Source of the DNA: Sorghum bicolor | Taxonomy: Eukaryota; Streptophyta; Magnoliopsida; Poales; Poaceae | Reading direction: 5' to 3' | Assembly: GCF_000003195.3 (NCBI RefSeq) | Contig: NC_012878.2 | Span: 15,245,262-15,309,261, forward strand | Length of the DNA: 64,000 bases | Shown: positions 35,802-58,136 of the stretch, one piece after another | Layout of the letters: every line of letters begins with the position of its first letter | How positions within the stretch are numbered: the first letter of the stretch is position 1 | Program-made: the position numbers and the translations under genes | The notes under the pieces: model-generated | Told to the model about the DNA's origin: nothing | Databases searched by the model: none | What the model saw: the letters and a program-made list of their open reading frames with translations, nothing else

Positions 35802-36193
35802 TGTTATGACCGGTATGGTCTATCAGAGGAGGGAGAAGGAACGTGGCTGAACCAGACCAGGAAGGCAGCCTGGACGTGGTCACCACCTGGCCTATTGGCC
35901 AAGTTATCTAGAGTTTGCATTAGTTAAGATTTACTTTCCATAATAGATTAGATCTATTCCTATTAGATTGGAACTGCTATTGTATAAAGAGTGGAACTCG
36001 TATTGAATGAGAGGTTAGCCTGGGATTGAGATATTCTTATCTCCCTTGGGCTCCCGGCCCTTGTCTCCTGTTTCCCGTCTCCCTGTTGCGTGAGTTCCCT
36101 CGACAACGGCACCTGCACGCCGCCGCCCAGCTCGCCCTCACGTCCCTGTCTCTCCCCCATACTTCCTCCGAAGCAAGCTCCGGCGTCGTAACA
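35802..36193 (+). repeat. 5' LTR of the Reina-like element (392 bp)
   Basis: TG...CA ends. TATA box TGTATAAAGAG at 35981-35991. It is followed four bases on by the primer-binding site. Confidence 0.93.
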
Positions 36194-36196
36194 ACC

Positions 36197-36210: not shown

Positions 36211-38432
36211 ATGGCTACGACCGGCGTCTCCTCCAGCCCCGTCGATCCTGCTGCCGGCACTACTCTTCCACAAATCACCGCCACCCTCCCCGCTGCCGAC
36301 TCCACAATACCACCTGCATCCTCCAACGCCCTGATTCCCACCCTCACCATGCCGCTCACCACCCACACACCGCCCCCACAGCTGGTGTCCATGCCCAGCG
36401 ACACTCTGAATTTCTTCACCAACACCCTGCAAGGGATCCAAAACCAGCTGTCTGTCCTCAACTTCCAGGTGGGTGATCTCGCCACGCGTGTGGCTGTCAT
36501 CGACGGCCGGGAATTGGCTTCGGCCCAGCACCTCCCCCAAGTTGCGCTGCCAGGGTTTGGCTCCATGCCCGCCCTGACCGCGCCCTCGTCAGCTGGGGCC
36601 TCGGCGTCGACACCCCATGTGCCAGCAGCATCTTCGGCGCCCGCAGCAACAACAATGGGCTCCCTGTCCTTCGGCTCGGTGCAGCCGACGTCCGCTGCAC
36701 TAACAGCGGGGGTGCCAATCAATCAGATCCGCTTCCCGGCTTCACCATCTCCGATCCCTTCACTGGAGGCAATCATGAGGGGCGCACCAGCCGTGTCCTC
36801 GGCTCCGATGGCATCACCGTCACCACATGTCAGCGTGTCCCCGGCACCGGATGGTCACGTCGTCCCCAAGTACCACAAGCTTACGTTCCCCACCTTCGAT
36901 GGCAAGGAGGACCCGCTGGGGTGGCTGAACAAGTGTGAACAATTTTTCAATGGGCACCAGACGCGCCACAGCGACCGAGTCTGGCTTGCATCTTATCACC
37001 TCACCGGGGTTGCCCAGCAGTGGTACCTCGTCCTTGAGGCTGACTCCGGTCGTCCACAGTGGGAAGAGTTCCGCACGTTGTGCCATCAACGCTTCGGGCC
37101 GCCCCTCAGCACCAACCATCTCTCGGATCTCGCGCGCCTACCTTTCACCTCCACGGTGGATGCGTACATGGAGGCGTTTCAGGCTCGCGCAGCCCACGCC
37201 GGGCGTCTCTCTCCGGGCCAGAAGGCAAAGCTGTTCACTGGAGGCCTGCCCCATCACATCCGCGTCGATGTCGAACTCCACGACCCGCAGGACTTGCAGC
37301 GTGCCATGTACTTGGCCCGCGCCTATGAACGCCGGAACGCGCCGGCGCCCCTTGCCCTGCCGGCACCCCCGTGCCGCCGACCGACCAGCACCACTTCGAC
37401 GCCGGCTGGCGCGGTGACCCAGGCGGAGAGCTCCTCATCCTCAGCACTGCCGCGCTCCTTCAAGCGGCTCACACCAGATGAGATGGCCGAGCACCGAAAG
37501 CAAGGCCTTTGCTACAACTGTGATGAGCCGTACGTCCGTGGCCACAAGTGTGCTCGGCTGTTCTTCCTGGAGGTCACCGATTACATTGTGGAGGAGCCTG
37601 AAGATACGGACAGCGGCAGTACGCAGCCGGCTGAGGACGCGCCCTATGACACCGACAAGCCCCTGATCTCCCTGTCCGCGATCACCGGCATTCGGGCGCA
37701 CGAGACGATGCAGCTCCGCGTACATGTGGGTCAGCACGAGCTGACTGCGCTGCTGGATTCGGGATCCACTCACAACTTCATCAGCAGCGCCGCAGCCCAC
37801 CGCGCAGGTCTCCACTTCCAGGACAGCGAGGGCGCTCACGTCACGGTCGCCAACGGTGACCGCGTCCTGTGTCGCGGCATCGCCCGCGGAGTCAACCTCC
37901 AGATCGGCATGGAGGTCTTCAAGGTCGATTGCTACGCCATTCCGCTGGACTCCTGTGACATGGTCCTTGGCATCGCCTGGCTACGCACACTCGGACCCAT
38001 CTTGTGGGACTTCGACAACCTACGCATGGAGTTCTCTCTACACGGCCGCCGAGTACAATGGCGCGGCGAAGGGACGCCATGCTCAGCAGCAGCATCGCCC
38101 CCCAACGCCCAGAGCCTGCAGATCCTCTCGGCCAAGGGGACCGAGCCGGCCCTCCTCGAGCGCCTGCTGGACGCATACGCTGACGTGTTCGCAGAGCCGG
38201 ACGGGCTGCCACCAGCCCGCGACTGTGACCATCGGATCCACCTCAAGCCGGCCACAGAGCCCGTGGCGGTGCGCCCGTACTGCTACCCGCAGCTCCAAAA
38301 AGACGAGCTCGAACGCCAGTGCGACGCAATGCTGCAGCAGGGCACGATCCGCGCCAGCACCTCCCCGTTCTCAGCACCTGTCCTGCTGGTCAAAAAACAA
38401 GATGGCTCATGGCGCTTCTGCGTGGACTACCG
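36211..38432 (+). pseudogene. Gypsy gag-protease-RT start, first half of the split polyprotein
   Basis: ATG at 36211 just after the primer site opens a continuous frame. Residues about 1-210 are a Pro/Ser/Thr/Ala-rich leader. Gag (FPTFDGKEDPLGWLNKCEQF) occupies about 225-395. The zinc knuckle is the Reina-style C-x2-C-x7-H-x-C (CYNCDEPYVRGHKC, about 431-444). Protease (LLDSGSTHNFIS) is near 513. RT begins at about 690 (FSAPVLLVKKQDGSWRFCVD). The frame is cut in the RT by the inner element at 38433 and resumes at 53030. Apart from the insertion I see no stops in this half. Confidence 0.92.
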
Positions 38433-41400
38433 TGTAACACCCTAGGTGTTAAGCATGCACTTAGCCTCACCAAAGCCATGCATAAGCATTTCATCAAGCA
38501 TAAGCATCATGAGCATGACACTCTTGAGCAAAGTATGATTTTATGTGCTTTATTTCATGTGTTTTAAATATGATAAAAATATGATACTTGCTTCTAAAAT
38601 TGTGAAAAATTCAAATTAGGTAGATTTATGTGTGAGAAGAATTTAGAATATTTTTGTGCACTTTTTGGAGCTATGGAATTTGAGAAATGGAATTTATACA
38701 AAAATATCTAAAAAGAATTTAATTAAAACCTAGAACTGAGTTTTAACTTGTAATTCAAATTCTGTTTGGAATTTGGTTTTGCTTGTTAAAACAAAGTGGT
38801 AGAGTTTTTGTTTTGGAACAACTTTGCTTTTGGGTGGAAATGGTGAAAATGATTTGAAAATAGTCAAAATGCTTTTGGAAGAGGATTTGAGAAAAGAAAA
38901 TTTAAAAAAAAAAATGGAAAAGGGAAAAGGGGGCGCTAGCAGGCCGCGGCCTCGCTTCTGGCCCACTGGCCGAAGCCGGCTCGGCCCGCCCGCGCTCTCC
39001 CCTCCCCCTTCCCCCGCGCTCGCGCCCGCGTCCGCGCGCGGACAGCGCTCGCCGCGACGCCGTGGCACGCCGGCAGGGCTCGGCCGCCGCGTGGCGGGCA
39101 TGCGGCAGCGAGGACGCGCCCCGGTCGGCCACCAAGGCGCCCCGGTCGCGCTCGCCTCCGCCACCGCTCCCATTTGCGCCCCTCAGCTCTCTCTCTCTCG
39201 CTCTCTCGCCCTCGCCCCGCACGCGCGGAGCGCCGCCGTCGCCATTGGAGCCCGAGCTTCGCCTCGGCTGTTCCTCCTCCGTACGTGCGCCATTCTTCAA
39301 TTAGTTCTTCCCCGAGCTTCGCTTTCGCTCCGCCGTTGCGAAACGCTCATCGGAGCACTCGGTAAGGCACGGTGAGCCCCGCTCGCCCTCGCTTTCTTCT
39401 CCGGCGAGAGCTCCGCCGCCGCACGCGTGATCCGCGCGTCCCCATGCCTTCCGGTGCTACGTAGTTGGCGCATCGTGTTCGCCTTGGCACCGCGATGCTC
39501 GCAAGCCCCTCCAGCCACGCTCTACCGAGCCGGCGTCCCGTACCGACGACGAGCAGCGCCGCCGCTCCGCCATGGCCGGTGGCGAGCCTGCTCCGGTCCG
39601 TTTTAGGCCGCGCAAATGAGTGCCTTAGGTCCGCCGTGATCCGTAGAACGTGTAGAGCCGCTTGATTCGCCGAAAGGGGTCGCCGACGGTGAGCTCCGGC
39701 TCGCCGGAGCTTCCCCCCCCCCTCTGCGCTCTGACCAGCGGGCCCTGCTGGCAGGCGGGTCCGCTCGTCAGCGGCCGCGGGTGCACTGCACCGGGTGCAC
39801 CTAGCAGATCTCGGGGTGGATTTGATTTGTTTTCAGAAAAATAATTTCCAGGAAATGATTTAAATGTTCAAAAATTCATATCTTGATGAATATGGCTCCA
39901 AAAATGGTGAAATAAATTTTGGTGTGTTCCTTATTTCCAGATCTATATCCTAGTATGATTGCATGTCATGTTTGAATAACTTTTCTGTGTAAGTATAATT
40001 AATCCATGTTTTTGTTGAACTTGGAAAATGCATAGTAAATGGAATATGGCTCAGAAAAATGTGAAACTTGTTTTGCTGGCTCTGCATGTGTGTTTACTCA
40101 CTGAGAAAATATTGTTACATATTATTTGGTGTATAAATGAATTTATGGTAATTTAAATGCTTGCATGGCAGTACTTTATGATTTTTAATAATTAATTGAG
40201 TCATGCAATAAATCTGGAAAATTTTGTGGATGTTTCTTATGATATTAGACAAATTGTAAAAATATGACATCTGTTGTTTAACACTTATATCACAGTAGGG
40301 TGATTATACTTACTCTATTACTTAATCTTGAGATTTTTGTGGTTCAAAATAAGTAACCAAAAATTATAAAAAATTTACAGTGGACTTTGTGATTAACTAG
40401 TAGTCTCCTGTAATTTTTCTGGAATTTATTGATGAACAGAATTGCATGTGATTTTAATAGGCTTAGAAATAAATAAAGAAAATTTTTGAATGGTTGTGTA
40501 TATGGGTTGAATGGATTAAGTTGGGTTTGGTGTATCTTTGAAGCATCATATAGGTTGCTGATGTCATTTGAAAAATAATTATAGAAGAGAATGTAATAGA
40601 TGTTTGATTCAATTGTTTATTCTTGGATGATGTTGACTACCTTGTAATAAGCATGATCAAGTGCATTACTTATGCATCACAACATGACTCTTTTGGTACT
40701 CTCTCATATAAGCATCCACTCGGGCATCTCGCACTCCACTCATGAGCATATATGCATCATACAGGCTCGCAGGAGAACAGAGTGGGACCCGAGGAACCCG
40801 AGGAGCTTCAGGAGCAGGAACCTCCGGAAGCACAAGAGTCCGGAGAGGAACTGCAAGAGTGCCCGGATCATCGACCCAGCACGTTTGAGAAAGGCAAGCC
40901 CCGGAGCATTCTAAGTCTCCCTATTCTCACTAACTTATATAAAGTGCTATACTTATTCTACTATATTGCATATTACGTGATAGGAGTTGTCTGGTACCGT
41001 TGCTGCATATGTATTCCTTGTTATCCCTACTCGTTATCTACCTTGTCCTATGTAGATAGGCGCGGAGTCTATGCTTAGCCTGCTTAGTCCGGTAGAAGTC
41101 GGGTGATGTCCTGTCACCTGCGAGATGTAGGTGGATACCTGCTTGATTAAGCAGTGGTTGCTGGGGAAAGAAATAACCAAGTGTGGAAAGTAATTGGAGA
41201 CCGGGCAGGGTCTTATGGTGGGTTGCCCATAGTGCCCCTGCCTGTGTCGATTAAGGACCGATCGTTGACGGCCCTCTTGTCATGTTGAACGCATGCCCCA
41301 CATTTAGCTGGAAGGATAAGTCGTTCCGACCGCGAAGCCTGAGCACTATCCGGGCCGGGAATCGGCCCGATGTACGCGCTGTATTGGTGATGGTTGAGGA

Positions 41401-42399
41401 GAACGACGAGGGCGCGGCGCGCAACCTTGGTATACCTTGGATACCTCGGTCGCCGGAACGGTCCTCGGGTACGGGCGGTGCCTGTCGAACCCGCGAATTG
41501 GTCCTGGATAGTGCAATACGGTGATCTGTAGCTCACTTGATCAGTGAGTGTGGTTTGTGTGGGGAATAAACTCGCCAGCTGGTTAGAAATCGATTCGAAT
41601 CGCCATCGCTCCTGGATAGTGAGCACTTGACATGAGCCCTGTCCTCGTAGTAAGGACTATGGAACACTTGGGTTATAATGAAACGGGTTTATGACTGCTG
41701 TAATAAGGTACTATCATAGTCTCATATTTGCTTGTAATAGCACAGGAGCAAATCTAGGTAATAGATAATGATACTGTCAACTTGAGCAGATTAAAAGAAG
41801 AAAGGATTTATGTAGGCTTGGGTAATAAAATCTTGCGGTCTTTGCAAAATGGTTGTCAGCTACCCCACTAAATAGCCTTCATGATCCTTGATGAGTCTTT
41901 CTTTTAAGTTTATGACGGGTAAGTCTAGCTGAGTACCTTCTCGTACTCAGGGTTCTATTCCCATGTTGTTTTGCAGATGGTCAAATGTACTATGGTTATT
42001 GCATCCTCTGTCTGTACCCAGCTATGGGTGATGACTAGACCAAGGGCGATGGTCACTCCGTCTCTTCTTTTGCTTTTGTGGGAATGACCGAACTATGGCA
42101 CTGTATCAGACTTATCGCGTGTGTTGTATTTTCGAACTATGAAGCTTCCGCTACTTGAAGAACTTGTTTTGTAATAACTTAAGTACTCCGATGTGTTTCA
42201 TGAATGTTGTAATCTGGATGTACTTGTGGATGACGACCGCTAAACTTATTACGATCTTGGCTGTATATGTGATGTGTGGTTTGAAATCCTTCGAGATTTC
42301 ACGGACTACCGGGATTATATGGGCTTAAGCGTGATAGTTCGACTATGCAAATGGTCACTATTAGGCTTAATCTCTTATAATTTGGTCGGTTCTGTTACA
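38433..42399 (+). repeat. 5' LTR of the chromovirus (3967 bp)
   Basis: Layout: AT-rich start, GC-rich block 38930-39790, AT-rich middle to 40700, then a mixed end. The LTR tip TAACACC-CTA-GGTGTTA is an inverted repeat. Open frames inside the GC-rich block recur in the 3' LTR and are not genes. Two promoter readings are possible: near the GC-rich block, or the TATATAAA at 40936. Confidence 0.93.
40936..40943 (+). promoter_or_regulatory. TATA-like box in the chromovirus LTR
   Basis: TTATATAAAGTGC lies about 1.46 kb before the LTR end, with the equal position in the 3' LTR near 51566. It could set the U3/R boundary. The GC-rich block upstream is an alternative promoter. Confidence 0.4.
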
Positions 42400-42401
42400 G
42401 C

Positions 42402-42413
42402 TGGCATCGGAGC
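42402..42413 (+). promoter_or_regulatory. Primer-binding site of the chromovirus
   Basis: TGGCATCGGAGC follows the LTR end by two bases, a variant of the methionine-tRNA site with two changes from TGGTATCAGAGC. Confidence 0.75.
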
Positions 42414-43218
42414 AAAGTTTAGCGAGTTACTGTTCATAAGCACGCTCTGAACAAAAGTCTAAACCGGTTTAATGAAAGATTTTAGTAATTAATAAAGATC
42501 AAGGTGTTAAACTAAGTTTTGGAAAACTATCTAGTGTGCCATGGTCATATCCTTTATGCCCAGTTAAGGACTCTAAGGTGGCTAGCTAAGTACTGACTTG
42601 GGGGTTAATGCATCATATTTTTATTTCGTCGCTCATACGGCGTGCAATAGTATGAGTGCCATTCATTTGAGTGGTAATGAATGGATCAATTCTTCCTCTA
42701 CGCCATGGTAAGTGGGAGTTGTGAGAGCATGATCGGATACACTGCCGGTCTAGGGAAGTGTTGTCAAGTGCTGTGTCACGCACACATGTTGGTGTGTCTT
42801 GGGAACAGTACCGCATGCTGGGAATTCCGTCTTGAGAGGCGATGCCGTCAATAGGGCGATGATGTGGGTAGTGGCACGTCACCTGCATAGACGGGTGTCT
42901 GTGTGGGTGAAGTGCATGGTTCTAAATTCTTGCTCTGCATGATCATATTGTGGGTGGGCTGAAATGAGTTTTCTGCAGGTACACTAACCACGTTCTCGCT
43001 TAGAACGCTAGTTACGTTATGAGAGAACGTTGTGTGCCACCGCATCTACCGCTTAGTGTTAATCTTTGTTTCAAGGTTTGTGAGATCGTAAGTTCGTGCA
43101 TGCATCATGTTCATTTCATATCATTGCTTACTTCCCCCTTAATTTAATCTGTCCCATTTCTAAATAAAATAATTAAAGGTAATCCTCGCTCTTACCCACG
43201 GTATTCCATTTGCAGCAG
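42414..43218 (+). other. Untranslated leader between primer site and ORF0
   Basis: About 800 bp with no long frame. It ends in TTCCATTTGCAGCAG directly before the ORF0 start codon, which resembles a splice acceptor. Packaging signals are expected here but cannot be recognised. Confidence 0.5.
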
Positions 43219-44262
43219 ATGGCACGCACTAGGCTTACAGCTCGCAAGTCCACTGGTGGGCGGGCCCCTCGCCGTCCGTTGGCAGCTAGGAGCTCGCGAC
43301 ATAAGAGCAAGTTCCTAGAGGAGTTTGGGATGCCCACTTTGCTTTGGAGGGTGCTCAGTTCGATGGGGTACCCCGAAGGAAGGGAGCCTCGCTACTATTG
43401 GGATAAGGAGCCGCTTGGTGACGAGACCCTGGTGGGGATTGAGGCAGTTGTCCCTACCAGTGGAGGAGACCCTGCTTGGGGCGGCTGGGTGTACGAGTCC
43501 CGAGGTGTCACGCCTTTCCACGGTGCCAGCAGGGCAGCTTTTGCAGTTTTGAGGGACCTCATGGAGAGGTTTCCACAGGAGCTGGCCCACGCCTTCGCTG
43601 GGGTGTTTCCCCGGGGTGACCCTTACACTTCGGTGTGGGATCAGTCCGAGGTGAATGCTCTAGAGAGGAGTGCGGATGAGGACCAGCACAGTGACAGTGC
43701 AGCTATGAGTGCCATGTACGCGTTGATGAAGACCTATGGAGGCCTGGAGCGTTGTTTGGGTCGCTTGTCCGGGTCTCTTCTCACCGTCCAGGATGAGAAG
43801 CGTCAGTTGCAGCGTGAGTTTGACTCCGAGGTTGAGAGGCTACAGGCAGAGTTGGCTCGTGTGACCAGAGAGAGGGACCAGGCAGTCCAGAAGAACAGTG
43901 AGCTGAGTCAGGACCTGCTTGCAGTACGGGAACAGAAGGACAGGGTGACTACTGCTCACAGGAACTGCGAGCGCATGCTAGTCCATGTGCTTGGACAGAG
44001 GAATGAAGCCTGGCACGAGGAGGACACTTTGAGGGCCCGACAGCTAGAGCTAGAGCAGCAGCTAGCTAATGCCGAGGAGTACAATGAGAACTTGCATGAG
44101 GAGATCCACCAGCTGCATAACCAGCTTCACCCTCACCACCTACCTGGAGCCGCGGAGCTAGACTCTGAGGACGAGATGGACACGGATCCCGAGTTAGGAG
44201 CAGCTGCTAGTGGTGACGAGGATGAGGATGGCTCTGGCATGGACAGTGACCACAGCGAGTAG
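43219..44262 (+). CDS. Chromovirus ORF0: histone H3-tail mimic with coiled coil and acidic tail
   Basis: I choose the ATG at 43219 (347 aa); the three codons upstream begin at a TTG. Seen: after Met, residues numbered as in H3 give A1 R2 T3, then T6-A7-R8-K9-S10-T11-G12-G13, A15 P16 R17 and L20 A21, 16 of the first 21 identical to plant/animal H3. Positions 4, 14, 18 and 23 are Arg instead of Lys, and RHKS replaces the K27 motif RKS. Residues about 35-125 could fold as helix-strand-strand-strand-helix like a dsRBD (inference). About 195-305 is a heptad-rich coiled coil. The last 35 residues are Asp/Glu-rich, like histone-binding tails. There is no histone fold, so it is not an H3 gene. Function unknown. 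Confidence 0.85.
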   Translation: MARTRLTARKSTGGRAPRRPLAARSSRHKSKFLEEFGMPTLLWRVLSSMGYPEGREPRYYWDKEPLGDETLVGIEAVVPTSGGDPAWGGWVYESRGVTPFHGASRAAFAVLRDLMERFPQELAHAFAGVFPRGDPYTSVWDQSEVNALERSADEDQHSDSAAMSAMYALMKTYGGLERCLGRLSGSLLTVQDEKRQLQREFDSEVERLQAELARVTRERDQAVQKNSELSQDLLAVREQKDRVTTAHRNCERMLVHVLGQRNEAWHEEDTLRARQLELEQQLANAEEYNENLHEEIHQLHNQLHPHHLPGAAELDSEDEMDTDPELGAAASGDEDEDGSGMDSDHSE

Positions 44263-44582
44263 ATGCTAGGGCTCTGGAGCTAGTCTTCCCTCCCTTGTTG
44301 TTGTATGTTGCATGGCATGTCGTGTACTTTTGGGATCTGGGCTGTGTAAGACTTTATGAGTTGATACCGAAAGTCCAGTGTATGTATGCTGGCAAGTTGG
44401 ATGTACGCGAACCTTGTTGCGTAAATGTTAAGTAATCTGTTAGTGATGTTGTGCGTGGATAATGAGTTATTGTGCCTTTGTTTATTGTGTGAATCTATTC
44501 CCTCAGTAAATTCAGTATGGCACGATTTTACACATTTTCTACCGGTTGATGGCAACTCCTAACGATTGCTTATCATTGGCGT
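44263..44582 (+). other. Spacer between ORF0 and gag-pol (320 bp)
   Basis: Non-coding. It ends GGCGTATGCAG right at the gag-pol start, again acceptor-like. No internal ribosome entry feature can be recognised. Confidence 0.5.
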
Positions 44583-47500
44583 ATGCAGATGGTGCAAACA
44601 CGTGGCGGGGGTAGCAGCAATCCGGGCCTTGGAACAGGTACATCCGGAGGTGGGGCTCAACGGATTGAGGACAGAGCACCAACACCGCCACCGCCACCAC
44701 CGCCTCCCCCGTACACTGCGGATGTGTTTTTCGCGCAGTTTCTGGGAAGCCAACGCAACATGGAACAGATGCAGCGCAACATGGAAGAAGCTTTGCGCAA
44801 CATAGCTGACAACACCCGTCGTGGAGATAATCAGGGTGGTCGGGAGGTTAACCAGTACAGTTCGTTCAAGGACTTCATGGATACCAAGCCACCGATCTTT
44901 AAGGAGGCTTTGGAACCGCTCGAAGCAGATGAGTGGATCAACACCATGGAGCAGAAGTTTCGTCTTCTCCGAATGACAGAAGAACTCAAGGCTGAGTATG
45001 CGGCACATCAGCTGCAAGGACCCGCTGGGATTTGGTGGTCCCATCACCGTACCACCTACCCGGAGGGGACACCAATCACTTGGAACCGCTTCACCACCGC
45101 TTTTCGGGGAAATTACATTCCTCCTGGTGTGGTTGAAATGAAGGTTGGGGAGTTCATGAGGCTGTCCCAGGGGACGAAATCTGTAAAAGAGTATCTACAT
45201 GCCTTCAATAATCTCGCTCGCTATGCCCCTGAGTTTGTGAACACGGAGGCCAAGAAGATTGCTAGTTTCCAGAGGGGCTTGAATCCAAAGATGCTGAAGA
45301 CCATGGGTACAGGGGCCAGGGCTACTTTCAATGCTTACATCAGTGACTGCCTGACCCAAGAGAACAATAACAACAACTACAGTGCATCCAAGTCGCGTAA
45401 AAGGGCTTTTGAAGCTGGATCATCCCAGTCCAGGGCACCAGTGGCAGGGCGACAGCAGTATCGTCCTCCTGCCCCGGGTGCTAGGTTCCGACCACCGCAG
45501 AGAAGGAACACCGGACATCCGACACAGCAGAAGCCGTACAAGGCGGCGATAGCTCCTGCCAAACCAAAGGCAATTCAAGCTGCAGCACCTGCCGTCAACA
45601 ACGCGCCCAAGGGTCCATGCTATAACTGCCACAAGATGGGGCACTTTGCTAAGGAATGTCCCTACCCCAAGAGGCAGCAGCCAACATATCCAGCTCGTGT
45701 GCATCATACCTCGATCGAAGAAATCCCGGAAGGAGAACCGGTTACAGCTGGTATGTTTTCTGTCAACCAACATCTTGCAGTTGTTTTGTTTGATTCTGGA
45801 TCGTCGCATTCATTCATGAGCCAAGCATTTGCACAAAAACATGATCAGCCAGTTACCGAGTTAGGTTATGGCTATCGCATCAGCTCAGCCGGGGCAGATG
45901 TGTTGACTAATAAAACGGTAACAGGAGTTACCTTGGATATCAGTGGTCGAAGGTTCCGTGTAAACCTTGTGGTCATGCCAGGACTGGTTTTGGATGTCAT
46001 CATTGGGATGAACAAAATGACTGATTGGGGCGCGGTTATAGATACCGGGAATAGAACTCTTTCCCTTAGAGACCCGCAAGGAAAGGGGGTGCTTCAGGTC
46101 AAGCTACCTAGACGGTTGGACTTCGCCAGCCTTTCATGTGCAGTGCAGGTAGTTCCTCTAGAACACATACCCGTGGTACGTGAGTTCCCGGACGTGTTTC
46201 CTGAGGATTTACCAGGACTTCCCCCAGATAGGGAGGTAGAGTTCGCAATAGAGTTGATACCAGGTACAGCACCAATATCTAGAAGGCCGTATCGGATGCC
46301 CCCAAATGAACTCGCAGAATTGAAGAAACAACTGAAGGAATTATTGGAAAAAGGGTTCATCCGGCCCAGCTCGTCGGAATGGGGTTGTCCCGCGTTGTTT
46401 GTGAAAAAGAAGGATCAGTCGTTGCGCATGTGCGTGGACTATCGTCCACTCAATGCAGTGACAATCAAAAATAAGTATCCCTTGCCAAGGATTGATATCC
46501 TGTTTGATCAGTTGTCCAAGGCAAGAGTGTTCTCTAAGATAGATTTGAGATCCGGGTATCACCAAATCAAGATTCGTCCGCAAGATATCCCGAAGACTGC
46601 TTTCTCCACCAGATATGGGTTGTACGAGTATCTTGTCATGTCCTTTGGGTTGACAAATGCTCCTGCATACTTTATGTATCTGATGAATTCAGTTTTTATG
46701 CCAGAATTGGACAAGTTTGTTGTGGTGTTTATCGATGATATCCTGGTGTATTCAGAAAATGAGCAAGATCACGCCGAACATCTGAGAATCGTGCTGACAC
46801 GATTACGAGAGCATCAGTTATATGCCAAGTTCAGCAAGTGTGAGTTCTGGTTGAAGAAAGTTCCGTTCCTAGGGCACATTTTGTCTGAAGAAGGGATTGT
46901 CGTGGATCCATCAAAAGTGCAGGAAGTCATGGACTGGAAGGCACCAATTTCGGTCTCGGAAGTTAGAAGTTTTCTTGGTCTGGCCGGGTATTATCGTCGT
47001 TTTATACCTGACTTCTCCAAGATTGCTAAGCCCATGACAAGTTTGCTACAAAAGGACCATAAGTTTGTCTGGACGGAAGGGTGTGAGTTAGCCTTCCGCA
47101 CCCTGCGAAGATTGCTAACCACTGCTCCCGTTCTGGCACAACCTAATTTAGAGAAGCCTTTTGATGTGTTTTGTGACGCATCAAAGAGTGGCCTGGGGTG
47201 TGTGTTGATGCAAGATGGCAGGGTGATAGCTTATGCTTCCCGACAGTTAAGGAAACATGAAGTCAACTATCCAACGCACGACCTCGAGTTAGCAGCGGTA
47301 GTGCATGCTTTGAAGATTTGGAGGCATTATCTGCTAGGAAATAAGTGTCACATTTACACCGATCACAAGAGTTTGAAGTACATCTTCACGCAGTCCGAGC
47401 TGAATATGAGGCAACGACGGTGGTTAGAGCTAATCAAGGACTATGACCTGGAAGTTCACTATCATCCAGGCAAAGCTAATGTGGTCGCCGATGCTTTGAG

Positions 47501-49064
47501 TCGCAAACCGCGCTATCAAATGGTTCAACCGTTGTTTGAAGATGGGTTCAATCTTATGCATCCTGAGGTTTTATGTCATATACAACTCAGTTGTTCACTC
47601 GAGAGTCAAGTCATTGAAGGTCAGAAAACAGACAAGGGTATTTTCCACATCAAAGAGAAGATCAAAGATGACCCAAAGACTCAGTTTCGGGTTGACGAGA
47701 AGGGGGTACTGTGGTTTCAACAGCGGTTAGTGGTCCCGAAAGATCGGGAGTTGAAGAATCGCATCATGGATGAAGCCCATCTCTCCAAGCTGTCTATTCA
47801 TCCGGGCAGCAGCAAAATGTATCAAGATTTAAGGCCCCACTTTTGGTGGACCAAGATGAAGAAAGAAATAGCAGCTTATGTGGCCCGTTGTGACACGTGT
47901 TGCAGAGTTAAGGCCATCCATATGAAACCTGCAGGTCTGTTACAACCGTTATCAGTTCCGGAGTGGAAATGGGAAGAGGTCAGTATGGACTTTATCACAG
48001 GTTTACCAGCCACAAGGAAGGGGAATGACTCGATTTGGGTAATCATAGATCGGTTGACCAAATCGGCCCATTTCATCCCTGTGAAGACTCGTTACCGACC
48101 TCCTGAGTATGCCGATATATATATGGCTGAGATTGTCAAGTTGCATGGTATTCCCAAGACAATCATATCAGATAGAGGACCGCAGTTCACCGCTCACTTC
48201 TGGGAGCGCATGCATAAGAGCTTGGGAACCAGTCTGATAAGAAGTACGGCGTATCATCCCCAGACTTCAGGTCAAACCGAGAGGTTAAATCAAGTGTTAG
48301 AAGATATGCTGAGGGCCTGTGTGCTATCATCCAAAGGATCATGGGAATCGTGGTTACCTTTGGCTGAATTCTCCTACAATAACAGTTATCAAGAGAGCAT
48401 CAAGATGGCCCCGTTTGAAGCTTTGTATGGTCGAAGATGTCGGACTCCGTTAAACTGGGTTGAACCTGGTGAAAGAAGATACTATGGTATCGACTTTGTG
48501 AATGATGCCGAGAAAAAGGTGCAGATCATACAACAACATATGCAAGCAGCACAGTCACGACAGAAAAGTTATGCTGATAAGAGAAGAAGGCCACTTGAAT
48601 TCAACATAGGTGACTATGTGTACCTCAAGGTTACGCCGATGAAGAAAGTTCAACGTTTCCGAGTTCGAAGCAAGCTTGCACCCAGATATGTGGGACCGTA
48701 CCAAGTACTAGAGAGGAAAGGCCCGGTGGCCTATAAGATTCAGCTACCTGAGGAGATGAGCTCGATCTTTCCGGTCTTCCATGTGTCGCAACTACGGAAA
48801 TGTTTGAAAGTGCCTGAGCAAAGAATTGAACCCCGAGGGATCAAAATAAAAGCAGACTTAGAGTATAAAGAGCAGCCAGTGGGAATCGTGGATACCAAGG
48901 AGCGAGTAACCCGAAACAGAATTGTCAAAACATACAAGGTGGTGTGGAGTCATCATGACGATAGGGATGCCACCTGGGAAACAGAGGATTACTTAAAAAC
49001 AGTTTACCCAAAGTTTCATAAGAAATGGTTAGTAACCCAAAATCTCGGGACGAGATTTCCCTAA
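44583..49064 (+). CDS. Chromovirus gag-pol polyprotein, intact, 1493 aa
   Basis: A single uninterrupted frame from ATG 44583; a second in-frame ATG at 44589 is equally plausible. Domains in order: Pro-rich start, gag (about 100-270, [17 protein letters not shown]), zinc knuckle [14 protein letters not shown] (about 347-360), protease [14 protein letters not shown] (about 400), RT from about 570 ([14 protein letters not shown], catalytic FIDDILVYS at about 718), RNase H ([16 protein letters not shown], about 860; [21 protein letters not shown]). Integrase has an HHCC zinc finger (CDTCC) and a DD35E core ([32 protein letters not shown]). A C-terminal chromodomain (about 1430-1485, [14 protein letters not shown]) ends it. 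Family role: replication through RNA in particles and chromodomain-guided integration into heterochromatin. No lesion was seen. Confidence 0.95.
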
Positions 49065-49076: not shown

Positions 49077-52000
49077 TGTAACACCCTAGGTGTTAAGCAT
49101 GCACTTAGCCTCACCAAAGCCATGCATAAGCATTTCATCAAGCATAAGCATCATGAGCATGACACTCTTGAGCAAAGTATGATTTTATGTGCTTTATTTC
49201 ATGTGTTTTAAATATGATAAAAATATGATACTTGCTTCTAAAATTGTGAAAAATTCAAATTAGGTAGATTTATGTGTGAGAAGAATTTAGAATATTTTTG
49301 TGCACTTTTTGGAGCTATGGAATTTATACAAAAATATCTAAAAAGAATTTAATTAAAACCTAGAACTGAGTTTTAACTTGTAATTCAAATTCTGTTTGGA
49401 ATTTGGTTTTGCTTGTTAAAACAAAGTGGTAGAGTTTTTGTTTTGGAACAACTTTGCTTTTGGGTGGAAATGGTGAAAATGATTTGAAAATAGTCAAAAT
49501 GCTTTTGGAAGAGGATTTGAGAAAAGAAAATTTAAAAAAAAAAAATGGAAAAGGGAAAAGGGGGCGCTAGCAGGCCGCGGCCTCGCTTCTGGCCCACTGG
49601 CCGAAGCCGGCTCGGCCCGCCCGCGCTCTCCCCTCCCCCTTCCCCCGCGCTCGCGCCCGCGTCCGCGCGCGGACAGCGCTCGCCGCGACGCCGTGGCACG
49701 CCGGCAGGGCTCGGCCGCCGCGTGGCGGGCATGCGGCAGCGAGGACGCGCCCCGGTCGGCCACCAAGGCGCCCCGGTCGCGCTCGCCTCCGCCACCGCTC
49801 CCATTTGCGCCCCTCAGCTCTCTCTCTCTCGCTCTCTCGCCCTCGCCCCGCACGCGCGGAGCGCCGCCGTCGCCATTGGAGCCCGAGCTTCGCCTCGGCT
49901 GTTCCTCCTCCGTACGTGCGCCATTCTTCAATTAGTTCTTCCCCGAGCTTCGCTTTCGCTCCGCCGTTGCGAAACGCTCATCGGAGCACTCGGTAAGGCA
50001 CGGTGAGCCCCGCTCGCCCTCGCTTTCTTCTCCGGCGAGAGCTCCGCCGCCGCACGCGTGATCCGCGCGTCCCCATGCCTTCCGGTGCTACGTAGTTGGC
50101 GCATCGTGTTCGCCTTGGCACCGCGATGCTCGCAAGCCCCTCCAGCCACGCTCTACCGAGCCGGCGTCCCGTACCGACGACGAGCAGCGCCGCCGCTCCG
50201 CCATGGCCGGTGGCGAGCCTGCTCCGGTCCGTTTTAGGCCGCGCAAATGAGTGCCTTAGGTCCGCCGTGATCCGTAGAACGTGTAGAGCCGCTTGATTCG
50301 CCGAAAGGGGTCGCCGACGGTGAGCTCCGGCTCGCCGGAGCTTCCCCCCCCCTCTGCGCTCTGACCAGCGGGCCCTGCTGGCAGGCGGGTCCGCTCGTCA
50401 GCGGCCGCGGGTGCACTGCACCGGGTGCACCTAGCAGATCTCGGGGTGGATTTGATTTGTTTTCAGAAAAATAATTTCCAGGAAATGATTTAAATGTTCA
50501 AAAATTCATATCTTGATGAATATGGCTCCAAAAATGGTGAAATAAATTTTGGTGTGTTCCTTATTTCCAGATCTATATCCTAGTATGATTGCATGTCATG
50601 TTTGAATAACTTTTCTGTGTAAGTATAATTAATCCATGTTTTTGTTGAACTTGGAAAATGCATAGTAAATGGAATATGGCTCAGAAAAATGTGAAACTTG
50701 TTTTGCTGGCTCTGCATGTGTGTTTACTCACTGAGAAAATATTGTTACATATTATTTGGTGTATAAATGAATTTATGGTAATTTAAATGCTTGCATGGCA
50801 GTACTTTATGATTTTTAATAATTAATTGAGTCATGCAATAAATCTGGAAAATTTTGTGGATGTTTCTTATGATATTAGACAAATTGTAAAAATATGACAT
50901 CTGTTGTTTAACACTTATATCACAGTAGGGTGATTATACTTACTCTATTACTTAATCTTGAGATTTTTGTGGTTCAAAATAAGTAACCAAAAATTATAAA
51001 AAATTTACAGTGGACTTTGTGATTAACTAGTAGTCTCCTGTAATTTTTCTGGAATTTATTGATGAACAGAATTGCATGTGATTTTAATAGGCTTAGAAAT
51101 AAATAAAGAAAATTTTTGAATGGTTGTGTATATGGGTTGAATGGATTAAGTTGGGTTTGGTGTATCTTTGAAGCATCATATAGGTTGCTGATGTCATTTG
51201 AAAAATAATTATAGAAGAGAATGTAATAGATGTTTGATTCAATTGTTTATTCTTGGATGATGTTGACTACCTTGTAATAAGCATGATCAAGTGCATTACT
51301 TATGCATCACAACATGACTCTTTTGGTACTCTCTCATATAAGCATCCACTCGGGCATCTCGCACTCCACTCATGAGCATATATGCATCATACAGGCTCGC
51401 AGGAGAACAGAGTGGGACCCGAGGAACCCGAGGAGCTTCAGGAGCAGGAACCTCCGGAAGCACAAGAGTCCGGAGAGGAACTGCAAGAGTGCCCGGATCA
51501 TCGACCCAGCACGTTTGAGAAAGGCAAGCCCCGGAGCATTCTAAGTCTCCCTATTCTCACTGACTTATATAAAGTGCTATACTTATTCTACTATATTGCA
51601 TATTACGTGATAGGAGTTGTCTGGTACCGTTGCTGCATATGTATTCCTTGTTATCCCTACTCGTTATCTACCTTGTCCTATGTAGATAGGCGCGGAGTCT
51701 ATGCTTAGCCTGCTTAGTCCGGTAGAAGTCGGGTGATGTCCTGTCACCTGCGAGATGTAGGTGGATACCTGCTTGATTAAGCAGTGGTTGCTGGGGAAAG
51801 AAATAACCAAGTGTGGAAAGTAATTGGAGACCGGGCAGGGTCTTATGGTGGGTTGCCCATAGTGCCCCTGCCTGTGTCGATTAAGGACCGATCGTTGACG
51901 GCCCTCTTGTCATGTTGAACGCATGCCCCACATTTAGCTGGAAGGATAAGTCGTTCCGACCGCGAAGCCTGAGCACTATCCGGGCCGGGAATCGGCCCGA

Positions 52001-53029
52001 TGTACGCGCTGTATTGGTGATGGTTGAGGAGAACGACGAGGGCGCGGCGCGCAACCTTGGTATACCTTGGATACCTCGGTCGCCGGAACGGTCCTCGGGT
52101 ACGGGCGGTGCCTGTCGAACCCGCGAATTGGTCCTGGATAGTGCAATACGGTGATCTGTAGCTCACTTGATCAGTGAGTGTGGTTTGTGTGGGGAATAAA
52201 CTCGCCAGCTGGTTAGAAATCGATTCGAATCGCCATCGCTCCTGGATAGTGAGCACTTGACATGAGCCCTGTCCTCGTAGTAAGGACTATGGAACACTTG
52301 GGTTATAATGAAACGGGTTTATGACTGCTGTAATAAGGTACTATCATAGTCTCATATTTGCTTGTAATAGCACAGGAGCAAATCTAGGTAATAGATAATG
52401 ATACTGTCAACTTGAGCAGATTAAAAGAAGAAAGGATTTATGTAGGCTTGGGTAATAAAATCTTGCGGTCTTTGCAAAATGGTTGTCAGCTACCCCACTA
52501 AATAGCCTTCATGATCCTTGATGAGTCTTTCTTTTAAGTTTATGACGGGTAAGTCTAGCTGAGTACCTTCTCGTACTCAGGGTTCTATTCCCATGTTGTT
52601 TTGCAGATGGTCAAATGTACTATGGTTATTGCATCCTCTGTCTGTACCCAGCTATGGGTGATGACTAGACCAAGGGCGATGGTCACTCCGTCTCTTCTTT
52701 TGCTTTTGTGGGAATGACCGAACTATGGCACTGTATCAGACTTGTCGCGTGTGTTGTATTTTCGAACTATGAAGCTTCCGCTACTTGAAGAACTTGTTTT
52801 GTAATAACTTAAGTACTCCGATGTGTTTCATGAATGTTGTAATCTGGATGTACTTGTGGATGACGACCGCTAAACTTATTACGATCTTGGCTGTATATGT
52901 GATGTGTGGTTTGAAATCCTTCGAGATTTCACGGACTACCGGGATTATATGGGCTTAAGCGTGATAGTTCGACTATGCAAATGGTCACTATTAGGCTTAA
53001 TCTCTTATAATTTGGTCGGTTCTGTTACA
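49077..53029 (+). repeat. 3' LTR of the chromovirus (3953 bp)
   Basis: Same sequence as the 5' LTR except for the 14-bp GAGAAATGGAATTT segment absent near 49325, an extra A near 49541, one C fewer near 50345 and two substitutions. It ends TTACA before TACCG. Confidence 0.94.
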
Positions 53030-55368
53030 TACCGCGCGCTCAACTCGGCCACCGTGAAGGACAAATTTCCCATACCAGTGGTCGAGGAACTTTTGGATGA
53101 ACTCCGTGGTGCTCGCTTCTTTACGAAGCTGGATCTCCGCTCCGGGTACCACCAGATTCGCGTACATCCTGACGACGTGGCCAAAACGGCGTTCCGAACC
53201 CACCACGGCCGCTTTGAGTTCCTGGTCATGCCGTTCGGCCTCTCCAATGCGCCGTCGACGTTCCAGGCCCTCATGAACACGGTGCTGAAGCCCTTTCTTC
53301 GCCGATGCGTGTTGGTGTTCTTCGACGACATCCTTATTTACAGCACCACGTGGACTGAACACCTCCTCCAGCTGCGCGCCGTCCTCGACGTCCTTCGAGC
53401 CCACAGCCTTCATCTCAAGAGGTCCAAGTGCTCCTTCACAGCGACTTCAGTTCACTATTTGGGCCATGTGATTTCTCATGCAGGGGTCTCCATGGACGTG
53501 TCCAAGGTGGCGGCGGTCCAGTCTTGGCCACAACCGCGTTCAGCCCGTGGTCTTCGAGGCTTCCTCGGCCTCGCGGGATACTACAGGCGCTTCATCAAGG
53601 ACTATGGCGCTATTGCGGCGCCGCTGACCAGCCTCCTGCGCAAGAACGCCTTCTTGTGGACAGCCGAGGCTGAGGACGCGTTTTCTGCATTGAAGCAAGC
53701 CCTTTCAGCCGCCCCGGTGCTGCATCTTCCGGACTTCAACCTCGAGTTCTTCGTCGACTGCGACGCGTCCGGCTCCGGCTTCGGGGCTGTTTTGCATCAA
53801 GGAGAGGGCCCTCTGGCGTTCTTCAGCAGGCCATTCGCTGTTCGCCACCTGAAGGTTGCTGCATATGAGCGCGAGCTGATCGGGTTGGTCCAGGCAGTGC
53901 GGCATTGGCGGCCGTACCTCTGGGGCCGGTCCTTCGTCGTCCGCACCGATCACTATGCGCTCAAGTTCCTGCTAGACCAACGCCTATCAACGATCCCGCA
54001 AAATCACTGGATCAGTAAACTCATGGGTTATGATTTCAGGATTGAGTTCAGGTCAGGGCGCTTCAATGTCGTCGCCGACGCGTTATCAAGGCGGGATGGC
54101 GACGCACCCTTGCTGTCCACGTTGCCGTCGGCTGCGCCGGCACTGGCAGCACTTTCGACACCGACATTCCAACTGTTCGACGAGCTCCGCCAAGAGTTTG
54201 CTGCCTCCGATGAGCTTCGGGCAGTCTGCGAAGAAGTGGCTGCGGGCGGCCGCGGCGCGGACTGGGCGCTGCAGGACGGCCTCCTTCTCCACAAGGGGCG
54301 GGTCTATGTTCCAGCCTCTTCCTCGGTCTTCGACGACGTGCTACAGCTCACGCACACCAACGCACACGAGGAGATCCAAAAGACGCTGCAGCGATTGCGC
54401 ACTGAGTTCTTCATAGAACATGATCGTCGCACTGTCCATGACTACATTAGGGCCTGTGCAACGTGTCAGCGCAACAAGACAGAGGCTATGCACCCGGCTG
54501 GTTTGCTGCAGCCCCTCCCGGTGCCATCGAAGGTGTGGGCTGACATCGCGATGGACTTCGTCGAGGCGCTACCCAAGGTGCACGGCAAAAGCGTTATCTT
54601 GACAGTGGTGGATCGCTTCTCCAAGTACGCCCACTTCATTCCTCCGCGACATCCATACACAGCCTCGTCTGTTGCTCGCGCGTTCTTCCGCGACATCGTG
54701 CGTCTCCATGGTTTTCCGGACTCCATTGTAAGTGACCGTGATCCGGTGTTCACGGGGAATGTGTGGCGCGATCTCTTCAAGCAGGCTGGCGTCCAACTTC
54801 GCATGAGTACCGCCTTCCACCCACAGACGGATGGGCAGTCCGAGGCTGTGAACAAGACGATTGCAATGTATCTCCGCTGCATCACAGGTGATCGTCCAAG
54901 AGATTGGCTTGATTGGCTGCCGTGGGCTGAGTTCTGTTACAACACATCCTTTCACTCAGCGCTGCGTGCCTCTCCATTCATGGTGGTGTATGGTCGGCCG
55001 CCGCCACCACTGCTGCCATATGGTCCCGGGACAGCCCGCACCGAAATTGTGGATTCCATGCTAGCTGACAGGGATGAGTTTCTGGCAGAGGTTCGTGCTC
55101 GTCTTCTCCAAGCCCAGGAACACGCACGCCGCTTCTACGACGCCAAGCACCGACCTCTCGAATTGGCTGTGGGTGACTGGGTGCTGCTCCGGTTGTTCCG
55201 CCACAACCAGTCTGTTGCACCGGGCAGCACCGGCAAGCTGGGCCCCAAATACGCTGGTCCGTTCCAGATCTTGGAACGCATTGGCGAGGTGGCATATCGG
55301 CTCCAACTTCCTGAAGGTGCCCGCATTCATGATGTGTTCCATGTGGGCGTCCTCAAGCCGTTCCGGGG
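53030..55368 (+). pseudogene. Gypsy RT-RNase H-integrase, second half of the split polyprotein
   Basis: The frame continues the RT cut at 38432. [19 protein letters not shown], catalytic FFDDILIYS near 53315. RNase H: FFVDCDASGSGFGAVLHQ near 53755, [10 protein letters not shown] near 54070. Integrase: CATCQRNK finger (54455), AMDFVEAL, SDRDPVFTGN, QSEAVNKT core (54550-54860). GPKYAGPFQILERIGEVAYR (55240) marks the integrase C-terminus. After KPFRG near 55368 the frame shifts, and the chromodomain is in another phase. Because of the inner insertion and this shift the element cannot make its full polyprotein. Confidence 0.92.
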
Positions 55369-55369
55369 C

Positions 55370-55595
55370 CGCTGCCTGCAGCTGCACCAACATTGCCTCC
55401 GCTACGTCATGGTCGGCCCCTTCTTCGTCCACAGCAGGTGCTGCGTTCTCGGCTCAGCCGCGGCGAGTGGCATGTGCTCGTCCAGTGGGCGGATCTTCCA
55501 CCTTCAGAAGCTACTTGGGAGCCGGTGTCAGACTTCCGTGCTGCTTACCCTTCCTTTCAGCTCGAGGACGAGCTGTTTCCGAAGGAGGGGAGAGA
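55370..55595 (+). pseudogene. Frameshifted chromodomain of the Reina-like element
   Basis: In the shifted phase the sequence reads PLRHGRPLLRPQQVL then GEWHVLVQWADLPPSEATWE and SFQLEDELFPKEGRD, a chromodomain of the chromovirus type. A single-base loss near 55370 explains the phase change; I cannot exclude a sequencing error. The frame runs on into the LTR. Confidence 0.8.
55581..55595 (+). promoter_or_regulatory. Polypurine tract of the Reina-like element
   Basis: GAAGGAGGGGAGAGA lies directly before the 3' LTR. Confidence 0.85.
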
Positions 55596-55987
55596 TGTTA
55601 TGACCGGTATGGTCTATCAGAGGAGGGAGAAGGAACGTGGCTGAACCAGACCAGGAAGGCAGCCTGGACGTGGTCACCACCTGGCCTATTGGCCAAGTTA
55701 TCTAGAGTTTGCATTAGTTAAGATTTACTTTCCATAATAGATTAGATCTATTCCTATTAGATTGGAACTGCTATTGTATAAAGAGTGGAACTCGTATTGA
55801 ATGAGAGGTTAGCCTGGGATTGAGATATTCTTATCTCCCTTGGGCTCCCGGCCCTTGTCTCCTGTTTCCCGTCTCCCTGTTGCGTGAGTTCCCTCGACAA
55901 CGGCACCTGCACGCCGCCGCCCAGCTCGCCCTCACGTCCCTGTCTCTCCCCCATACTTCCTCCGAAGCAAGCTCCGGCGTCGTAACA
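55596..55987 (+). repeat. 3' LTR of the Reina-like element (392 bp)
   Basis: I found no difference from the 5' LTR by eye. It is followed by ACTAG, the right target duplication. Confidence 0.93.
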
Positions 55988-55992
55988 ACTAG

Positions 55993-56979: not shown

Positions 56980-57010
56980 GGGATATTTAACTTTTTACCA
57001 TTTTTATAAA

Positions 57011-57459
57011 GGGGCATTTGGCTACCGGACATGCAAAGTGGCGCGCATTAGCTGAAAGACACTTTTTCATGTAACACTCACCACCAAAACAGTTGCCATT
57101 TGTAAACCATAAGGCCAATGGCTATGAAATTTTAACAGCAACAAGATATGATAGTTATCTACAAATCATCTAATACTCACTTCCATAGAAAATCTTGTTA
57201 AGGACATGAAATCATGTCCACCAGCAACCTTAACAGCCATGATTTGCTGGTGGACATGATTTCGTGTCCTTAACGAGATTTTCTATGGAAGTGAGTATTA
57301 GATGATTTGTAGATAACTATCGTATCTTGTTGTTATTAAAATTTCATAGCCGTTGGCCTTATGGTTTACAAATGGCAATTGTTTTGGTGGTGAGTGTTAC
57401 ATGAAAAAGTGTCTTCCAGCAATGGTCACCACTTTGCATGTTCGGTAGCCATTTTTCCC
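57011..57459. mobile_element. Foldback element, near-perfect 217-bp inverted arms, 9-bp target duplication
   Basis: Arms 57011-57227 and 57244-57459 surround a 16-nt centre and could form a hairpin over the whole element. TTTTATAAA (57002-57010 and 57460-57468) flanks both sides, the 9-bp duplication typical of Mutator-family insertion. Ends are GGGGCATTTGGCTACCG and CGGTAGCCATTTTTCCC. It is non-coding and interrupts the left inverted repeat of the surrounding element. Confidence 0.85.
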
Positions 57460-58136
57460 TTTTATAAATGACGCTCCATCAAAAACCACTATTAGAATGG
57501 CATCTATATTTTTGCCACTGTGAGAGAATCTTCGTTCAGTTTTTGCCAATTTCGCTGATTTGGCAAGACATGTCAGCGATAGAGAGGCCAAGTGAAAAGT
57601 CCAAAATACCCTTGTTAGGACGTGGAAGACATGTTGAAGAGATTCACACGTTACTTTCCACGTAGCCACCACACTGCAATCGCACACGCCTCTATAGTTG
57701 AACATGCATGCTGCTGGTCCGCGGCGGCGGTCAGGTCCTCGATACATCAAGCAGATGCCATAGGGTGGCCTTGTCATGGTGCTGAGTGCACGTGAATTTG
57801 GTCCCGCCCCAGCTCCAACAACGGCTCAGATTCTTGTGGCACAACCCGTTCCACACACGAGCGTACCACTCGCCTCTCCTGGTGACACCGTGACACCACT
57901 GCCGCCGAGCGCTCAGCAGACATTTGGTACATGGCAAAACGAACGGTGCCAGATTCCATCATGAGCGGCTACGCAATGCCAAAACTCCATCTCAAGTGAA
58001 CATCATCAGCATTCGGTGGCAGTTCTCTTAGCTTCAATGCGTTTATGCATGGTGGATTTGCACCCTTCGACTTTTGCACGATGTGAAACGGAGGAAGTAA
58101 TGGGCGGCTTGGAGAGTGGAGGTGCCATCGCATTAA

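Follow-up and report, generated by a model that had tools for sequence, protein, structure and literature searches.

An H3-like N-terminal tail on the ORF0 protein of a sorghum retrotransposon, a possible decoy for host silencing factors

Introduction

Why should a retrotransposon protein begin like histone H3? Mimics of histones have been described in viruses and in a small number of cellular proteins, mostly as short motifs; in influenza NS1, SARS-CoV-2 ORF8 and the G9a automethylation site, for example, the motif is only several residues long and usually lies internally or at the C-terminus. In these mimics an ARKS- or ARTK-type motif outside a histone has been proposed to engage the writers or readers of H3. 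Among grass retrotransposons, an extra open reading frame, ORF0, is known from Retrosat2, RIRE3, RIRE8, ZMsat2, Sorsat2 and Brasat2, and its product was predicted to be a hydrolase, acyltransferase or transporter (Gao et al. 2012, PMC3485330). The word "histone" has 0 occurrences in the main text of the same article (PMC3485330).

Here we analyze a stretch of 64,000 nucleotides of the Sorghum bicolor genome (NCBI RefSeq assembly GCF_000003195.3, contig NC_012878.2, positions 15,245,262 to 15,309,261 of the forward strand), referred to as the window, whose coordinates are used throughout. An initial annotation had reported that the upstream ORF of a young chromovirus starts with a mimic of the H3 tail. 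We asked whether this tail is real, whether it is kept and what it might do.

Results

ORF0 lies within an intact young chromovirus

We found that ORF0 resides 5' of gag-pol within an intact LTR retrotransposon, with the following features.

38428..38432, no strand: left copy of the target-site duplication (TACCG, 5 bp), immediately 5' of TGTAACACCC; the same 5 bases lie behind the 3' LTR
38433..42399, + strand: 5' LTR (TGTAACA...TGTTACA), about 3.97 kb, from comparison of the LTR pair
42402..42413, + strand: putative primer-binding site TGGCATCGGAGC, from the sequence
43219..44262, + strand: ORF0, 347 aa, from the ORF list; at least 117 copies in the assembly
44583..49064, + strand: gag-pol ORF, 1493 aa, from the ORF list and Pfam matches
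49077..53029, + strand: 3' LTR, from comparison of the LTR pair
53030..53034, no strand: right copy of the target-site duplication (TACCG), from the sequence

The primer-binding site TGGCATCGGAGC is presumably tRNA-Met-like. The two LTRs differ by 2 mismatches in 3951 aligned bases, with 16 gap columns, which bears out the description of the element as young; with an assumed grass substitution rate, its age would be roughly 20,000 years. Gag-pol runs in the order gag, zinc knuckle, protease, reverse transcriptase, RNase H, integrase and weak chromodomain, and Retrotrans_gag, RVP_2, RVT_1, RT_RNaseH and Integrase_H2C2 all lie above the Pfam cut-off, in the order of Ty3/gypsy elements. The C-terminus matches Pfam Chromo weakly (17.2 bits, under the cut-off of 25.1) and is 34% identical to an HP1 chromodomain (E = 3e-6 in a single comparison). 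A study of such chromodomains gives the Tekay motifs as (K/R)-X-(L/T)-R-X-(K/R) and EEXTWEXE (PMC3350952); by eye, RVTRNR of gag-pol agrees with the first, and RDATWETE retains TWEXE of the second but not EE. The element also has the Tekay-type combination of LTRs above 3 kb, here about 3.95 kb, with an ORF0 5' of gag-pol.

The N-terminus of ORF0 is a near copy of the H3 tail

43219..43308, + strand: H3-tail mimic, residues 1-30 of ORF0, from a PDB sequence search, a shuffle test and homologues

ORF0 starts with MARTRLTARKSTGGRAPRRPLA, and positions 43219-43308 encode MARTRLTARKSTGGRAPRRPLAARSSRHKS. Aligned in register from Ala1, 16 of 21 residues are identical to H3 1-21. Among 200,000 shuffles of ORF0 residues 2-46 the maximum was 9 identities and the mean 2.0, and the BLOSUM score of the tail lies 9.9 s.d. 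over the shuffle mean. When the whole protein was compared with PDB chains by phmmer, histone H3 was the top match (residues 1-24, E = 2.8e-4), and the best 60 of 167 matches with E <= 10 were H3, H3 variants or CENP-A/Cse4 chains by name. Since the identities far exceed the shuffle maximum and H3 is the top PDB match, the observation of an in-register near copy is correct, and the PDB search and shuffle test rule out chance similarity.

The TARKSTGG block around K9 is intact in the window, as first described. The window's tail has Arg at K4, K14, K18 and K23 and Leu at Q5, which leaves K9 as the only lysine among the first 27 residues, and its net charge is +10. A K27-like RHKS had also been proposed; position 27 is His in the window and K27 is kept in 0 of the 28 tails described below, which rules out K27 mimicry. 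The body behind this exactly N-terminal tail is unrelated to H3, as had been stated: Pfam matches of ORF0 up to E = 1 include no histone family, no histone-fold follows the tail, and a dsRBD-like order with a coiled coil is predicted instead.

The tail is conserved among homologues, and K9 is invariant

Three protein searches (41 of 41, 120 of 216 and 120 of 237 matches listed) gave 242 different proteins, so that 243, including the window's ORF0, were scanned for a tail, defined as at least 8 of 21 identities to H3 following a Met within the first 40 residues. An H3 tail is present in 28 of the 243, which answers the objection that it might be absent from all related elements. Most ORF0 homologues are metagenome fragments, and the majority of the tail-less proteins are fragments or have downstream starts; among viral and prokaryote contigs no relative of ORF0 was confirmed. 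Three proteins from two subfamilies (P0108, P0075 and P0067) have ARTKQTARKSTGG / MARTKQTARKSTGG identical to H3, and four more (P0047, P0069, P0122 and P0194) are one position off MARTKQTARKSTGG. Tails are damaged in P0129 and P0181, and P0085 has Asp at position 1.

Among the 28 tails, the H3 residue is kept in all 28 at K9, P16 and L20, in 27 at A1, A7, S10 and G13, in 26 at R2, T3, T6 and A21, and in 25 at K4, G12 and A15; the counts then fall through R8 (24), R26 (23), R17 (20), T11 (14) and Q19 (11) to Q5 (8). Position 4 is Lys in 25 tails and Arg in 3 (the window and 2 others). The acetylatable lysines are almost always replaced by Arg or His, with K4 and K9 retained: position 14 is Lys in 1, Arg in 26 and Gln in 1; position 18 is Lys in 0, His in 21, Arg in 6 and Gln in 1; and position 23 is Lys in 0, Arg in 26 and His in 2. 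These data show that the ORF0 tails match H3 in sequence and register, conserved beyond chance and with K9 kept, as expected of a histone mimic.

We compared the tail with the core in 13 proteins having both, giving 78 pairs that share members and are not independent. Core identity is below 60% in 59 of the 78 pairs, and in every one of these 59 the tail was better conserved than the core (mean identity 80% against 48%). Fifteen short ORF0s of about 200 aa (P0025-P0037, P0039 and P0040) are without the dsRBD-like domain, with the H3 tail fused directly to the coiled coil; 13 of the 15 have Ala at T11, and all 15 have K4.

A tree of the core domain divides tail-bearing from mostly tail-less proteins

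A core-domain tree was built from 32 chosen rows with the tail excluded and P0103, a rearranged tail-bearing protein, left out; by the program's warning, the long branches of P0192 and P0011 are possibly misplaced. The tree divides into two groups (support 100/99). Conservation in related elements holds for one clade and fails for most of the other: among rows whose N-terminus is known, 11 of 12 in the first clade have a tail, the twelfth, P0129, having a decayed one, and 9 of 10 in the second have none. These tail-less rows begin like MAAPAGCENFL (P0192: MDAPASPRPSDTFL), and because this sister clade is mostly without the tail, the element type can live without it. The exception, P0194, has a tail although it is sister to the tail-less P0165 (100/99); their upstream peptides are similar, and P0165 begins MATPVGCENFL in place of the tail. 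This placement suggests recombination, a natural tail swap, although P0194 may instead be a chimeric assembly. Tail state changes 2 times on the tree against 7.1 for shuffled labels, a count that does not distinguish gain from loss.

Sorghum copies carry fewer amino-acid changes in the tail than expected

The assembly of 709,120,108 bases contains at least 117 ORF0 copies at 98-100% identity, and among these best-scoring matches 100 of the 117 scored have no internal stop. Two other types were sought in the same genome: the short ORF0 type did not appear among the 150 matches listed for P0032 (54-62% identity, nearly all spanning only the coil part), nor did the P0067 subfamily among its 150 matches listed (58-62% identical). 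We fetched 60 loci (59 different copies, including the window's own), and the tail was readable in 58: 34 do not differ from the window, H3 position 18 is His in 17, and 7 are otherwise changed, two of them by a stop in codon 27 and one by loss of the ATG.

Thirty of these loci (L031-L060, 26 distinct sequences) were found via the coil and not selected by tail. Within them, nonsynonymous variants number 7 and synonymous ones 12 in tail codons 1-26, where 15.0 and 6.9 were expected. Codons 27-124 carry 27 and 36 (expected 53.3 and 24.2) with 2 stops, and linker codons 125-160 carry 16 and 8 (expected 19.7 and 8.8). Across all 55 distinct sequences, a set biased because half of the loci (30 of 60) were chosen by protein similarity, tail variants common to at least 3 number 1 nonsynonymous and 5 synonymous (expected 3.6 and 1.9). 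Amino-acid change in the tail is lower than expected, and purifying selection, which the initial annotation had raised, is supported, with the qualification that the counts are small.

The start codon of the tail adjoins an acceptor-like site

42708..42709, + strand: best-scoring candidate splice donor (ATG|GTAAGT) of 38434-44590, by a rough scoring matrix
43196..43218, + strand: splice-acceptor-like stretch TTCCATTTGCAG(CAG), adjoining the ORF0 ATG, by a rough score

An in-frame stop lies at 43180, with no ATG from there to the ORF0 ATG at 43219. The leader (42400-43218) contains 20 ATGs, so that ORF0 would be poorly translated from an RNA that is not spliced. The acceptor-like TTTGCAG(CAG) at the ORF0 ATG ranks 4th and 7th of 182 AG sites by a rough scoring, and TTTGCAGCAG|ATG is the same in 56 of the 60 loci (3 changed, 1 without an alignment there). 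The gag ATG also stands behind an acceptor-like GCAG (GTATGCAG|ATGGTG at 44589). In 16 homologues with a predicted start further upstream (10 with and 6 without a tail), the extension ends in Q before Met, as in LLQ|M, VQ|M and FLQ|M; P0188 is without such a Met. These ends are consistent with a CAG|ATG splice junction, and from this arrangement we infer splicing onto the ATG at 43219.

Could translation begin only downstream, at Met38, so that no tail is made? Starts are predicted exactly there in 14 of 137 homologues, and at the core or no more than 6 residues from it in 28 of 105 later homologues, probably because prokaryotic gene callers favour the SD-like GGAG before that ATG. The acceptor-like site adjoining the upstream ATG, kept in copies, argues against a downstream-only start, as do the fewer amino-acid changes in the tail codons, and we consider such a start unlikely. 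Once the tail is made, Ala behind Met should permit Met removal and leave a free end the same as that of H3.

The body of ORF0 is predicted to combine a dsRBD-like fold with a long coiled coil

43324..43584, + strand: predicted dsRBD-like domain, residues 36-122, alpha-beta-beta-beta-alpha, from a structure model and structure searches
43699..44127, + strand: predicted coiled coil, residues 161-303, one continuous predicted helix with pLDDT of about 95 over most of it
44128..44259, + strand: acidic C-terminus, residues 304-347, mostly low-confidence in the model, net charge -16; similar ends in homologues

The predicted order is thus H3 tail, dsRBD-like fold, long coiled coil and acidic end, and no Pfam family lies above cut-off in ORF0 or seven relatives. 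The middle domain is modelled with the alpha-beta-beta-beta-alpha order of a dsRNA-binding domain. For residues 34-123, Foldseek returned six dsRBD rows, ribosome-hibernation-factor chains (5x8r, 28lu and 6eri, E 0.03-0.07) and, lower and close behind the dsRBD rows, unrelated enzymes; the VIA-align rows were dsRBDs.

The usual RNA-contact motif of dsRBDs is a basic KKxAK at the start of helix alpha-2. By eye, this motif occurs in 0 of 52 aligned rows, 37 of which have no Lys in the 11 columns at its site, and the net charge of residues 37-124 is -4. A canonical dsRNA-binding role is unsupported, given the missing motif and the negative charge. The protein-interaction dsRBDs, TRBP dsRBD3, Loquacious dsRBD3, Staufen dsRBD5 and DRB7.2, are among the closest known systems to this domain.

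The acidic C-terminus ends in DSDHSE, and DSDHDE-like ends in many homologues hint at a second conserved short motif.

Discussion

The initial annotation had suggested that the tail could bait H3K9 methyltransferases, readers or chaperones. We hypothesize that ORF0 is a multivalent, acetylation-blind mimic of the H3K9 tail that engages the silencing factors of the host and most likely serves as a decoy for them; judged from sequence, we give this slightly less than an even chance. Upon Met removal the protein would start at Ala1 like H3 and could offer A1-R2-T3-K/R4-x-T6-A7-R8-K9-S10 to host proteins. Because K14, K18 and K23 are replaced, the tail would resemble H3 of the heterochromatin type that stays deacetylated for good. 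Through the coiled coil, several tails would be brought together in a multivalent array. The dsRBD-like domain might mediate protein-protein contacts, and binding of the tail or of histones could fall to the acidic end. Host SUVH-type enzymes may methylate K9 of ORF0; alternatively, H3K4me0/K9me readers of the SHH1, AGDP1 or CMT3 type may bind the tail. In either case ORF0 would compete with nucleosomal H3, and silencing of the element would be weakened.

AGDP1 contacts A1, R2, K4, A7, R8 and K9me2 of H3 and makes no specific contact to T3, Q5, T6 or S10 (PMC6208443). SHH1, which reads K4me0 plus K9me, and ZMP, which binds K4me0, are both linked to Pol IV (PMC7617993). In the ORF0 tails, the AGDP1-contacted positions A1, R2, A7, R8 and K9 show good conservation and position 5 varies freely (Q5 in 8 of 28), a pattern that would fit AGDP1- or SHH1-type partners. 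Against AGDP1-type reading, T3, T6 and S10 are conserved though AGDP1 makes no specific contact with them. The window's own tail, with Arg for K4 and Leu for Q5, would present a dual K4me0/K9me2 reader with an altered ligand.

We favour a decoy over four other readings, namely that the tail tethers ORF0 to heterochromatin, directs nuclear import, is a structural accident or mimics the K4 end of H3. The same conservation of the tail would be expected if the tail, K9-methylated or not, tethered ORF0 and an attached particle or cDNA to readers of heterochromatin, its effect being to guide integration into silent chromatin and not to block silencing. The group II chromodomains of plant elements, including Tekay, have no first cage aromatic and usually no third, and in 2012 no factor interacting with them was known (PMC3350952), which makes a second targeting device plausible. 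Gag-Pol, however, already ends in a chromodomain-like part, and nothing here ties ORF0 physically to integrase or cDNA; we regard a tether as unlikely. Since the element's own chromodomain is weak in Pfam, its binding of the tail is possible and not favoured.

H3 tails also function as nuclear localization signals, and the ORF0 tail could be such a signal for importins, its Lys-to-Arg changes keeping the charge; the net charge of +10 and the Arg or His that mostly occupy K14, K18 and K23 would agree with this. The uncharged A1, T3, T6, A7, S10, G13, P16 and L20 are nevertheless as conserved as the basic residues, position 18 is His in 21 of 28 tails, and the exact N-terminal register is kept beyond the need of an import signal, so that this role appears improbable. 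Still less probable is an accident frozen in place, in which a single capture brought in part of an H3 exon that has since been kept only as a basic segment to pair with the acidic C-terminus: the charges of +10 and -16 within one protein would suit such pairing, but the tail exceeds the core in conservation in 59 of 59 diverged pairs, K9 is invariant in 28 tails, 15 short proteins retain the tail without the dsRBD-like domain, and nonsynonymous tail variants number 7 against 15.0 expected. The least probable is that the free A1-R2-T3-K4 end is taken up by PHD fingers, LSD1-type demethylases or COMPASS, as that of SNAG domains is, with the K9 part incidental. The exact N-terminal position and A1, R2 and T3 (27, 26 and 26 of 28) would speak for this; against it, K4 is Arg in the window and 2 others, K9 is invariant in 28 tails, and conservation reaches residue 21.

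A bolder form of the decoy hypothesis is that a grass retrotransposon lineage captured the start of a host H3 gene and made of it a multivalent, acetylation-proof H3K9 decoy. The scaffold encoded by the element would then attract the host's H3K9 methyltransferases and K4me0/K9me readers, while the dsRBD-like module engages the small-RNA machinery (DCL/DRB partners). We consider this conceivable but rather doubtful; if true, one protein would interfere with both the chromatin and the RNA arms of silencing.

VANC of VANDAL elements is a transposable-element anti-silencing protein from DNA transposons that binds DNA. Both VANC and ORF0 are accessory proteins proposed to counter host silencing, and ORF0 would do so by histone mimicry. 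It differs from the viral and cellular mimics in that its match to H3 covers about 21 residues, in register and beginning at the N-terminus, belongs to a family of plant LTR retrotransposons and has lost the acetylatable lysines. The element resembles those of Retrosat2/RIRE type in having an extra ORF 5' of gag-pol, in belonging to grasses, in LTRs of about 3 kb or more and in a poorly conserved ORF0 body; LTR ends are TGTCACACCC in RIRE8/Retrosat2 and TGTAACACCC in the window's element (PMC3485330). To the description of ORF0 by Gao et al., the present analysis adds the H3 tail, the predicted dsRBD-like fold and the distribution over two clades. We found no description of an H3 tail in a plant retrotransposon in the literature searched, most subscription journals lying outside it, and within that literature an ORF0 decoy would have no precedent among transposable elements as a mimic of a histone tail.

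The description of ORF0 in 2012 left it with no clear function; it would gain a concrete one if host proteins read or write its tail as they do that of H3, and transposons could, if the decoy is true, turn the host's main silencing mark against the host. The family, with at least 117 near-identical copies of ORF0 in one 709-Mb genome, carries a tail of about 21 H3-like residues. The idea is open to direct tests, since some natural families have the tail, others lack it and one apparent swap is known, and the tail might serve the element as a tool for interfering with the plant silencing machinery.

Sequence surrounding the element

By eye, the young element seems to be inserted in the reverse transcriptase region of another gypsy-type element (flank 38410-38432), whose pol ORF appears to continue past the 3' LTR (52949-55603 of the window). 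A 195-bp stretch at 36001-36195 is repeated at 55795-55989 with 100% identity and possibly represents parts of this outer element. Each LTR of the young element contains a 108-aa ORF (40752-41078 and 51382-51708), the two differing by one residue by eye. A near-perfect palindrome of about 470 bp lies at 56999-57470, where the sequence and its reverse complement agree at about 90%.
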